Origin: an uncultured Pseudanabaenaceae cyanobacterium
Lineage (GTDB): Bacteria; Cyanobacteriota; Cyanobacteriia; Pseudanabaenales; Pseudanabaenaceae
Reading direction: 5' to 3'
Assembly (NCBI GenBank): GCA_937927915.1
Contig: CALGKB010000004.1
Coordinates: 310,001-374,000 of the forward strand
Length of the DNA stretch: 64,000 nt
Position 1 is the stretch's first letter. Each line of letters starts with the position of its first letter. Shown here piece by piece: positions 35,182 through 39,398 of the stretch. The notes under the pieces are model-generated. The model searched no databases. It was not told where the DNA came from and saw nothing but the letters and a program-made list of their open reading frames with translations. Made by a program: the position numbers and the translations under genes.

Positions 35182-36699
35182 TTATTGTTTTACCTCAATC
35201 CGCTCAAACAGAGGCTGGGGTTTGGGTAAATCCCTACCTGGTTCTAGTCCTCCCCACACCGCTTCTGTCCACAGGAACCGAGGTTCTAGGTGCAACTGCC
35301 GCCAAATTTTGCTACTCAGACTAGGAGTGATGGGGTAGAGGCAGAGACCCACCAACCGTAGCGCCTCCAGGACACTGTAGAGGATTTGTTCTACCTCCGC
35401 CTGGGCACCAGCTTTGTACAGTTTCCAGGGCGCCCGATCGTCTATTAGTTTATTCCCCTCCCGTACTACCGCCAGTACCGCCTGGCACACCTCCTGGAAG
35501 GCTAACACCTCATAGCTCCGCTGTACTTGCTGCACCATCTGGGCACAGGCAGTAGATAGATCATACCCGCGGGAGGGCACTTTGCTATCACAGTATTTGC
35601 AGACCATACCCAAACTGCGATTTAAGAGATTGCCCAAACTATTTGCCAAGTCAGCATTGAGAATTTCCACAAACCGCTGCTCACTGAAGTCCCCGTCCTT
35701 GCCAAACTCAATCTCCTTCAGGAAAAAATAGCGCACTGCATCTGCCCCATACTGCTTGACCAAGGCAAAGGGATCGATCGTGTTCCCCAGGGTCTTACCC
35801 ATTTTGAGACCGTCTTTGGTCAGGAAACCATGCCCAAACACCTGGCGCGGCAGGGGCAATCCCGCTGACATCAACATGGCGGGCCAATAGACAGCATGGA
35901 AGCGCAGAATATCCTTGCCTATGATGTGGACATGGATGGGATACCAAGTTTTCAAAGCATTTGCTAGGGTAGGGGCATCCTGGGGTTCTAGGAGGGCAGT
36001 GATATAACCCAAGAGGGCATCAAACCATACATAGAGAGTCTGGCTCTCATCAATGGGCACAGGGAAACCCCAGGTAGTATAGCGGGAGATAGAGAAATCC
36101 CGTAAGCCCTGCTGTACAAAGGCAACCACCTCATTGCGGCGGCTCTGGGGTTGGATGAAATCTGGCTGCTGGCGGTAGAGTTCCTCTAGTGCCTCCTGGT
36201 AGCGGGACAGGCGGAAAAAGTAGTTAGTCTCGTCCCGCCACTCACAGGTCACGGTGGGGTGAATGGGGCACTTATTCCCCTCTAGTAACTCCCGTTCTTC
36301 TTTGAACTCCTCACAGGCGACACAGTACCAACCCTGTTGCTGTCCTGGGTAAATATCCCCCCGCTCATACACCCGCTGGAAAAATTCCTTGACAATGGGG
36401 TAGTGCCTGGCATCCGTCGTGCGCACAAACCGATCGTACTGGATATCTAGCAATTGCCACAGGGACTTGAAGCCCTCCACCATCAAATCGCAGTGCTCCT
36501 GGGGGGTGCGGTTGAGTTTAGCGGCTGCCTGCTGAATTTTTTGTCCGTGTTCGTCACAGCCCGTCACAAACAAGGTCGGTGTCCCCGTCATACGATAGAA
36601 GCGCGCCAAGGCGTCCGCCGCGATGGTGGGGTAGGCACTGCCCATGTGGGGCAGGTCATTGACGTAGTAGAGGGGTGTAGTTAAGGCAACCGCTGGCAT
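35182..36699 (-). CDS. metG: Methionyl-tRNA synthetase
   Basis: This class I synthetase has 505 residues. The HIGH-like signature is in YYVNDLPHMGSAYPT, a zinc-knob-like Cys pair group in WYCVACEEF and GNKCPIHPTVTCEW, and the KMSKS loop reads KMGKTLGN. The C-terminal tRNA-binding (OB) domain found in longer MetG proteins is absent. It is divergent from the bifunctional-nuclease gene, with a 112-nt AT-rich spacer. Confidence 0.96.
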   Translation of the reverse strand: MPAVALTTPLYYVNDLPHMGSAYPTIAADALARFYRMTGTPTLFVTGCDEHGQKIQQAAAKLNRTPQEHCDLMVEGFKSLWQLLDIQYDRFVRTTDARHYPIVKEFFQRVYERGDIYPGQQQGWYCVACEEFKEERELLEGNKCPIHPTVTCEWRDETNYFFRLSRYQEALEELYRQQPDFIQPQSRRNEVVAFVQQGLRDFSISRYTTWGFPVPIDESQTLYVWFDALLGYITALLEPQDAPTLANALKTWYPIHVHIIGKDILRFHAVYWPAMLMSAGLPLPRQVFGHGFLTKDGLKMGKTLGNTIDPFALVKQYGADAVRYFFLKEIEFGKDGDFSEQRFVEILNADLANSLGNLLNRSLGMVCKYCDSKVPSRGYDLSTACAQMVQQVQRSYEVLAFQEVCQAVLAVVREGNKLIDDRAPWKLYKAGAQAEVEQILYSVLEALRLVGLCLYPITPSLSSKIWRQLHLEPRFLWTEAVWGGLEPGRDLPKPQPLFERIEVKQ

Positions 36700-36811: not shown

Positions 36812-37300
36812 ATGATTGAAATGAAGGTGGCAGGTATTGCCATAGACGCTATCAGTCATCATCCTATTGTTTTCCTCCAAGATACCGCCGATCGCCGTGC
36901 CCTCCCCATTTGGATTGGTGAGGCGGAAGCAAAAGCGATCGTGGCTGCCCTCGACCCCAAACCCTCTATCCGCCCCATGACCCATGAACTATTTGTACAT
37001 CTCTTGCAGGCGTGGGGGATGAAGTTAGAGCGGGTTGTAATTCACTCCCTCAAAAATAGCACCTTCTATGCTGTCCTCACCGTGTCCCAGGGGGAGACCA
37101 AGAAAGACATCGATTCCCGTCCCAGTGATGCCATTGCCATTGCTCTGCGGGCGGGCTGCCCCATTTGGGTCATGGAGGAGGTGATTTTGCAGGCCTCTGT
37201 ACCCGTGAACCAGGATGCGGATGAAGCGGAGCGCCGTGCCTTCCGCGAATTTTTAGAAAATCTCAGCCCCAGCGACTTTGCCAAGGGTATTCAAGGTTAA
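36812..37300 (+). CDS. Bifunctional nuclease family protein (DUF151)
   Basis: The 162 residues match the BFN/DUF151 domain (IEMKVAGIAIDAISHHPIVF, LPIWIGEAEAKAI, SRPSDAIAIALRAGCPIWV). Plant and archaeal members have been described as DNA/RNA nucleases, but the cellular role in cyanobacteria is unclear. AAGGTGG 5 nt upstream supports the ATG. The anti-sigma antagonist gene follows after 69 nt. Confidence 0.9.
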   Translation: MIEMKVAGIAIDAISHHPIVFLQDTADRRALPIWIGEAEAKAIVAALDPKPSIRPMTHELFVHLLQAWGMKLERVVIHSLKNSTFYAVLTVSQGETKKDIDSRPSDAIAIALRAGCPIWVMEEVILQASVPVNQDADEAERRAFREFLENLSPSDFAKGIQG

Positions 37301-37369
37301 AAACTACTAGACAACCAGCGCAATTGCCCCTAGAATATATCCGCACTTTAGGACTGAGGGGAGGTTGTT

Positions 37370-37756
37370 ATTTCTGAGCAACTTGACCTAACCGTTAGTT
37401 TACGGGGCAGAAGGGACATCCACGATAACTACCAGGTGCTGCGCTTTACGGGTCTCCTGGATGCTTTTTCTGAGCCAGCCTTCCGTAAAGTGGTGAGTAG
37501 GTGTATTGAAGAGGGTCCCAAGCACGTGATCCTGGATTTCTCAGCCATAGATTTTATCGACAGTTCAGGGCTGGGTATTTTGGTGCAGATGGCAAAGAAG
37601 TCCCAAGCCAGTGGCGGTACCCTGCAAATAGTCAGCAACCCTAGAGTAAAGCAGACCGTGAAACTGGTGCGCCTGGAGCAACTCCTTCCCCTCAAAGCTT
37701 CTCTGGAAGAGGCATTAGCAGCCATTGGCATCAAGTCTTCCGAAGTAAATCCCTAG
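37370..37756 (+). CDS. STAS-domain anti-sigma factor antagonist, probable ATT start
   Basis: The STAS domain (SpoIIAA type) is clear: NYQVLRFTGLLDAFSEPAF, LDFSAIDFIDSSGLGILVQM with the phosphorylatable Ser pair, and LVRLEQLLPL. Such proteins release sigma factors from anti-sigma partners when unphosphorylated. The only ATG/GTG/TTG in frame, a GTG at 37436, would remove the conserved first beta-strand (LDLTVSLRGRRDIHDNYQ) and has no ribosome-binding site. Upstream in frame an ATT (37370) sits 5 nt behind GGGGAGG, giving 128 residues, so I place the start there. No kinase or phosphatase partner is adjacent. Confidence 0.8.
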   Translation: MSEQLDLTVSLRGRRDIHDNYQVLRFTGLLDAFSEPAFRKVVSRCIEEGPKHVILDFSAIDFIDSSGLGILVQMAKKSQASGGTLQIVSNPRVKQTVKLVRLEQLLPLKASLEEALAAIGIKSSEVNP

Positions 37757-37871: not shown

Positions 37872-39398
37872 ATGGGACTACCTTGGTATCGGGTACACAC
37901 TGTACTCATTAACGACCCCGGTCGTCTGATTGCTTCCCACTTGATGCACACCGCCCTGGTGGCAGGTTGGGCAGGCTCGATGGCACTCTACGAAGTGACT
38001 ACCTTTGACCCCAGTGACCCTGTATTTAACCCCATGTGGCGGCAGGGAATGTTTGTAATGCCCTTTATGGCGCGCCTGGGTGTGACTAGCTCCTGGGGGG
38101 GTTGGACGGTAACGGGGGAAACTGCTCTCAATAGCGGTTTTTGGACCTTTGAAGGTGTAGCGATCGCTCATATTGTGCTCTCTGGTCTGCTGTTCTTGGC
38201 AGCCTGCTGGCACTGGGTGAACTGGGACTTGGAGTTGTTCCGTGACCCCCGCACAGGGGAACCTGCCTTGGATTTGCCCAAGATGTTTGGTATCCACCTG
38301 TTTTTGGCGGGGATTTTGTGTTTTGGTTTTGGCGCTTTCCACCTTACGGGCTTGTTTGGTCCAGGGATGTGGGTGTCCGATCCCTTTGGGCTGACGGGGC
38401 ACGTGGAGCCGGTAGCGCCGGATTGGGGTCCCAATGGCTTTAACCCCTTTAATCCCGGAGGAGTAGTGGCTCACCATATTGCCGCTGGCATCGTGGGGAT
38501 TCTGGCTGGTCTCTTCCACTTGATTGTGCGTCCGCCGGAAAGGCTGTACAAGGCACTGCGCATGGGGAACATTGAGACTGTCCTCTCCAGCAGTATTGCG
38601 GCGGTGTTCTTTGCGGCGTTTGTGGTGGCAGGGACTATGTGGTACGGTTCTGCTACGACCCCCATCGAGTTGTTTGGTCCTACCCGCTATCAGTGGGATA
38701 GTGGCTACTTCCAGCAGGAGATTCAACGCCGCGTCCAGGCGGAACTCAACAATGGCGCTACTCTCTCGGAGGCATGGTCTGCCATCCCTGATAAATTGGC
38801 ATTTTATGACTATGTGGGCAATAGCCCTGCCAAGGGTGGTCTGTTCCGCACAGGTCCTATGAACAAGGGGGATGGTATTGCCAAGAGCTGGTTGGGGCAC
38901 ATTGTCTTCAAGGATAAAGAGGGGAGAGAGCTATTTGTCCGCCGTCTGCCTAACTTCTTTGAGACGTTCCCTGTGGTGCTCCAGGATGCTGATGGTATTG
39001 TGCGCGCTGACATTCCTTTCCGCCGTGCGGAGTCCCGCTACAGCTTTGAACAGGCGGGGGTGACGGCTGAGGTCTACGGTGGTGCCCTGGATGGGAAGAA
39101 GTTTACTGACCCGGCGACGGTGAAGAAGCTTGCCCGCAAAGCACAACTGGGAGAAGCTTTTGAGTTTGATACAGAAACCCTCAACTCTGATGGTGTGTTC
39201 CGCACTAGCCCCCGCGGTTGGTTTACCTTTGCCCATGCTGTGTTTGCTCTCCTCTTCTTCTTGGGGCATATCTGGCACGGGGCACGGACGCTCTTCCGCG
39301 ATGTGTTTGCTGGTATTGACCCTGACTTCTCTGAGGAACTGGTAGAGTGGGGTGCATTCCAAAAGGTCGGCGACAGAACTACAAAGGTGGAGGCGTAA
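37872..39398 (+). CDS. psbB: Photosystem II CP47 chlorophyll apoprotein
   Basis: CP47 is a core antenna protein of photosystem II in the thylakoid membrane, with six helices and a large lumenal loop between helices five and six. The 508 residues begin [18 protein letters not shown]. Chlorophyll-binding histidines appear in [46 protein letters not shown] and [14 protein letters not shown], and in [18 protein letters not shown]. psbT follows after 3 nt. A 115-nt leader region lies upstream of the ATG; I see no convincing -35. Confidence 0.98.

Follow-up and report, generated by a model that had tools for sequence, protein, structure and literature searches.

The closest described relative of the gene discussed here encodes Ssr1600, an anti-sigma factor antagonist of Synechocystis. 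According to the available parts of that study, Ssr1600 binds the anti-sigma factor/kinase Slr1861 and so frees SigC; in high CO2 an rpoZ deletion is rescued by suppressors containing mere traces of Ssr1600, while growth there is slowed when the protein is overexpressed (PMC12329169). A second line of work concerns start codons. In Streptomyces, sigR is started by GTC and repressed by IF3, which holds the sigma factor below its anti-sigma factor, and it has been pointed out that start prediction is limited by assuming ATG, GTG or TTG (PMC5472188). In poor medium the non-canonical starts of ccpN and cvfC1 in Staphylococcus aureus support expression at about 10% of the AUG level, and with the AUA of ccpN this rises to as much as 30% in rich medium (PMC13009471). 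Here we describe a cyanobacterial STAS gene in which these two lines meet. In nearly every cyanobacterial relative examined it appears to start with AUU, AUC or AUA (AUH for short).

The window, that is the whole stretch of 64,000 nucleotides that was analysed, belongs to a cyanobacterial genome of 2.4 Mb (G000). Its ORF reading gives a STAS frame open on the forward strand from 37358 to a stop ending at 37756. An in-frame TGA at 37355..37357, the fifth codon upstream of the ATT at 37370..37372, precludes any start further upstream in this frame of the window genome; the four codons between them (GGG GAG GTT GTT) include no ATG, GTG or TTG. The earlier note had proposed this ATT as the only codon correctly placed after GGGGAGG. 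Our reading agrees: the Shine-Dalgarno sequence (37358..37364) is separated from ATT by 5 nt and has no other plausible start beside it. A -10-like hexamer, TAGAAT (37331..37336), lies 33 nt before the start codon. Counted from ATT, the gene has 128 codons and a stop (37370..37756). Its first canonical in-frame codon is GTG at 37436..37438, codon 23, and a start there would omit 22 codons (37370..37435), exactly the number of residues that the earlier note had roughly estimated to be at stake.

All of these features lie on the forward strand, as do both neighbours. Upstream is a gene with an ATG start for a bifunctional nuclease domain protein (36812..37300; Pfam PF02577, E=7.7e-40); downstream, the ORF list gives 37872..39398, which from its sequence we take to be psbB (CP47). 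On the reverse strand the ORF at 35182-36699, divergent from the nuclease-STAS-psbB stretch, is presumably methionyl-tRNA synthetase. This neighbourhood looks local to a few loci. A conserved operon with either neighbour is not general: out of 211 unique loci, psbB turned up in the retrieved DNA of 2 and the nuclease gene in that of 3. For 113 of the 211 this DNA is at least 3300 nt long, enough to show neighbours well.

With the full product the Pfam STAS profile (PF01740) gives a match above cut-off (E=2.7e-20) that begins at residue 17, profile position 6; with the GTG-started product the match begins only at profile position 12. Alignments to solved SpoIIAA chains begin at query residue 16-17, and ahead of that point these chains have another 7-10 residues. 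Both alignments imply that the product of GTG 37436 would miss the first part of the STAS domain. Twelve residues of Ssr1600 named in the available part of the published work (L24, D25, F27, R33, G43, D58, S59, S60, L62, G63, Q67 and V94; PMC12329169) all match the window protein at an offset of 6. Two STAS paralogues in the same genome (L002 and L003) reach 8 and 4 of the 12 at their best offsets. The equivalents of the phosphorylated S59/S60 are S65-S66 of the motif DSSG (37562..37567), and of 260 non-identical orthologous loci 258 have a DSSG serine between residues 64 and 68. On these matches we identify the window protein as an orthologue of Ssr1600, the SigC anti-sigma antagonist. The published numbering then seems to be six residues short of the conserved start, beginning at codon 7 of the AUH frame; codon 7 is TTG in three of five genomes of genus g50, which would explain such a beginning. 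Genes with HATPase_c_2 domains are present in the window genome, and the window protein is predicted to bind a Slr1861-like kinase and to control SigC. In two loci of genus g6 (L017 and L234) the STAS frame runs for 198 and 219 codons from AUH, an unusual C-terminal extension.

How widespread is the unusual codon? The earlier note had suggested comparing start regions in relatives, and we read 299 orthologous loci as DNA, 260 of them non-identical after removal of 39 identical in sequence; 12 matches without the LTVSLR motif were also left out before counting. Codon 1 is ATT in 170 of the 260, ATC in 67, ATA in 20, and ATG (L158, the sole genome of its genus in the set), TTG (L120) and AAG (L094) in one each. 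The AAG locus has ATT one codon upstream. Across all 299 loci, every one of the 36 family codes includes AUH, as do 120 of the 122 genus codes. The gene itself was found at E <= 1e-15 in all 252 genomes drawn from the class and in all 58 relatives; among 61 picocyanobacteria, 57 yielded it at E <= 1e-12. For the 252-genome set the reading of DNA draws on the roughly 150 matches listed, the picocyanobacteria being covered by a separate search and follow-ups. In the remaining four picocyanobacteria (G259, G281, G282 and G298, of two genera) the STAS gene was not found, even by a query from a picocyanobacterium, and it may be absent there. Outside the class, among 15 non-photosynthetic genomes of the same phylum, ten give only STAS matches, at 22-40% identity and a best E of 2.0e-11. 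The LTVSLR motif is absent from the nine loci passing a stricter search, of 14 fetched, and was not seen in the sequences of the other five.

Relatives with ATG at the same place would have made a sequencing error a natural suspicion, as the earlier note said, and just one of the 260 is of that kind. Since AUH occupies the same codon position in 257 of the 260, in every family code and nearly every genus code, and its carriers include single-contig genomes (e.g. G047, G056 and G094), an error as the source of ATT is excluded. The observation thus holds, and on the sequences compared it is wider than first noted: the gene probably has a phylum-wide AUU/AUC/AUA start of low efficiency.

ATT, ATC and ATA are the three isoleucine codons, and the AUH pattern taken alone also fits an internal isoleucine. 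The case for a start therefore rests on stops and on missing canonical codons. An in-frame stop is found within 150 nt upstream in 236 of the 260 loci (24 are without one), and in 151 of these 236, the window included, no ATG, GTG or TTG occurs from that stop to AUH. TAG is the fourth codon upstream in 64 of the 260, always within TAGGAGG, where stop and Shine-Dalgarno sequence overlap; four loci have a stop at the fifth codon. We consider it extremely improbable that translation begins at an upstream canonical codon, with AUH as internal isoleucine, or that the frame is reached by a shift. There are loci that could be cited for such a start: in 85 of the 236 a canonical codon does stand between the stop and AUH, 72 of the 260 have one within 11 codons, 26 have a TTG inside the Shine-Dalgarno sequence itself (TTGGAGG), and a relative of the same genus (L005) has ATG 5 and 7 codons upstream, with GGGGGAAG replacing GGGGAGG. 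However, an upstream in-frame canonical codon (at most 25 codons away) is preceded at 4-12 nt by GGAG or GAGG of its own in just one of the 260. Likely promoters also stand too close for this reading: in 170 of 259 loci a TATAAT-like hexamer has its end 30-50 nt upstream, where mononucleotide shuffles predict 18.4 such loci, and this spacing points to a leader some tens of bases long. For the frameshift version, an out-of-frame ATG within 60 nt and with no intervening stop is available in only 16 and 18 of 211 loci for the two other frames. Nor do the upstream codons look like protein. Near pairs within the 211 loci differ over 11 upstream codons of the same frame by 398 synonymous and 913 nonsynonymous codon differences, compared with 1013 synonymous and 426 nonsynonymous ones over codons 2-22.

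By these counts codons 2-22 evolve as protein; the amino acids LTVSLRG at codons 7-13 are kept through most synonymous codons in the 211 loci. This weighs heavily against a start at a downstream canonical codon (GTG 37436 in the window, TTG at codon 7 in some relatives), which is what annotation from canonical codons assumes and what the published Ssr1600 numbering implies for that protein. TTG and GTG are indeed present downstream, but their positions are erratic: the first one ranges from codon 4 to codon 102 in relatives. Among the 151 loci with nothing canonical between stop and AUH, it lies past codon 20 in 82 and past the phospho-serine in 10, which thus have no upstream alternative either. 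In addition, GTG 37436 would delete residues 1-22 from a domain that aligns with SpoIIAA within that segment. The Shine-Dalgarno sequence points to AUH as well. GGAGG occurs within 22 nt upstream of codon 1 in 206 of the 260 loci, with a spacer of exactly 5 nt in 159 of the 206; by comparison, among 48 non-overlapping window ORFs with a length of 150 aa or more, 5 show GGAGG at a distance of 4-12 nt upstream of a canonical codon, any such codon within the first 30 being counted. We regard the downstream start as very improbable. The identity and conservation of the codon, the stops, the Shine-Dalgarno sequence, the coding character of the 22 codons and the orthology to Ssr1600 are what the comparison of sequences establishes, and they bear out the AUU start that had been proposed for this antagonist.

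Two observations concern the leader. A regulatory hairpin over the start was considered and rejected, because the folding of the window leader (z -0.12 and -0.49) is no better than that of shuffles. Several loci, e.g. L034-L036, L106-L108 and L110, have a recurring ACGTCGAAT/GCGTCGAAT stretch after the -10-like hexamer, possibly a conserved part of the leader or an operator.

What might such a start do? Our main reading, with a probability of roughly 0.7, is that AUU 37370 starts the 128-residue Ssr1600 orthologue and that a strong Shine-Dalgarno sequence combined with a poor start limits its dose, probably via IF3. The strong GGGGAGG on a short leader would place fMet-tRNA on AUU; the mismatch at the third base would make initiation inefficient and expose it to discrimination by IF3; and the poor start would cap the dose of the antagonist. 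We infer fMet at the first position, together with low efficiency, sensitivity to IF3 and dose control. Residue 2 is Pro, Ala, Ser or Thr in 237 of the 260 loci, and fMet is removed after small residues such as these, according to the available part of a comment on proteogenomics (PMC13339759). By the precedent of sigR and ccpN it is plausible that IF3 lowers translation of the window gene and that a change to AUG would raise it. The throttle cannot be extreme, since Ssr1600-P is abundant in Synechocystis (PMC12329169, as available in part). Within the window genome the two STAS paralogues named above have an in-frame ATG, and so have two genes for HATPase kinases (L300 and L299); among the genes checked, the odd start is thus specific to the antagonist.

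It is also conceivable that AUH is real but that its inefficiency serves neither dose control nor regulation, the codon being kept through compensation by the Shine-Dalgarno sequence or because the Shine-Dalgarno/start sequence has another role, for instance in mRNA stability or as a small RNA target. The strong Shine-Dalgarno sequence in 206 of the 260 loci could restore near-normal translation, and the ordinary folding of the window leader offers no apparent structural control. Yet every AUH codon is one mutation from AUG, AUG was found in only one of the 260 loci, and switches to an AUG start are commoner than switches away from it (PMC5622118, as available in part). On a FastTree phylogeny of these short proteins, with L094 entered as ATT by hand, parsimony requires a minimum of 22 start-codon changes among the 260. 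Roughly 20 third-position changes depart from AUH states, and about one of these arrives at AUG; at three fourfold sites, by contrast, G was the outcome of 27% of the changes from A, C or T (P=0.017); the smaller count on 211 loci gives 20 changes and P=0.013. Coming from a rough protein tree, this is moderate evidence that AUG is avoided. A pattern search of 386 genomes for ATG versions found none, with a pattern that also misses the ATG of L158 and had no positive control. Taking both sides together, we find an unused inefficiency unlikely.

Dose control could be extended to a more specific function, which we put forward only tentatively and think somewhat doubtful. The AUH start may be ancestral, predating the split between family f14 (in which locus L223 has ATT at codon 1) and all the others, and may serve to sense the state of translation initiation, with AUG kept out. 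If IF3 per 30S subunit falls, or initiation slackens, the antagonist would be made; it would titrate the anti-SigC factor, and RNA polymerase with SigC would slow growth. AUG would lock this growth brake on, hence its exclusion. The AUU of cvfC1 in S. aureus, for which the available part of the report describes no medium dependence, counts against a regulated start (PMC13009471).

The earlier note was right about the rarity of AUU starts, but bacteria offer known cases besides infC: the accessible parts of the literature also describe AUU for pcnB (PMC9410913) and cvfC1, and AUA for ccpN (PMC13009471). Nor does infC provide a parallel within cyanobacteria. In loci drawn from a search of 40 cyanobacterial genomes, 30 of 30 infC loci have a canonical codon before the conserved core (ATG in 21, GTG in 6, TTG in 3); an AUH start, as in the autoregulatory class of infC, was found in none of the 30, and with canonical codons available an IF3 loop of the E. 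coli infC type is not evident. As a separate observation, 11 of the 40 genomes have two IF3_C matches (G036, G041, G042, G046, G049, G052, G058, G060, G061, G065 and G072). The second one scores lower and in most cases spans profile positions 2-71; G065 has two such weak matches and no strong one, and the window genome has a single match. An additional IF3-like protein could be relevant to non-canonical initiation.

A search of the open-access literature, in the parts of it available, found no report of an AUH start for the STAS/Ssr1600 gene, and the STAS gene is not named in the accessible portion of a 2026 comment on Synechocystis proteogenomics, which discusses six ORFs (PMC13339759). Start prediction from canonical codons would truncate this growth regulator of the Ssr1600 type, and comparative reading can uncover such hidden starts. 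Through the AUH start, a link from translation initiation to the choice of sigma factor in photosynthetic bacteria also becomes open to direct test. No other transcription regulator is known to us in which a non-canonical start is this widespread.

Compared with known systems, the gene is closest in product to the Ssr1600/Slr1861/SigC partner switch of Synechocystis sp. PCC 6803, with the same protein family and all 12 residues shared; it differs in its start, since the available main text of that study contains neither 'start codon' nor 'AUU' and numbers the protein from codon 7 (PMC12329169). With E. coli infC and pcnB (PMC9410913, seen in part) it shares the AUU start, which in infC is discriminated by IF3. 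Unlike them it encodes neither a translation factor nor a poly(A) polymerase, and it shows no autoregulatory loop. By its sequence it would belong with the non-canonical start genes of the infC, pcnB and sigR type, having a start other than ATG, GTG or TTG and a strong, well-spaced Shine-Dalgarno sequence. From the available parts of the other reports, Listeria rsbW variants with ATA or ATT resemble it in that a weak start in a partner-switch gene alters sigma activity, but they are newly arisen mutations of an anti-sigma gene and not an ancestral start (PMC13068326). S. aureus ccpN (AUA) and cvfC1 (AUU) likewise combine conserved non-canonical starts with extended Shine-Dalgarno sequences; they encode other proteins, the cvfC1 start being kept among Staphylococci and that of ccpN being common to B. 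subtilis (PMC13009471). Streptomyces sigR is similar in design: it has a non-canonical start and an extended ribosome binding site in a sigma/anti-sigma module and sets the ratio of the partners. There the codon is GTC (GTT in 2 of 34), conserved within Streptomyces and placed on the sigma factor itself (PMC5472188), whereas here it is AUH, occurs across cyanobacteria, and is placed on the antagonist.
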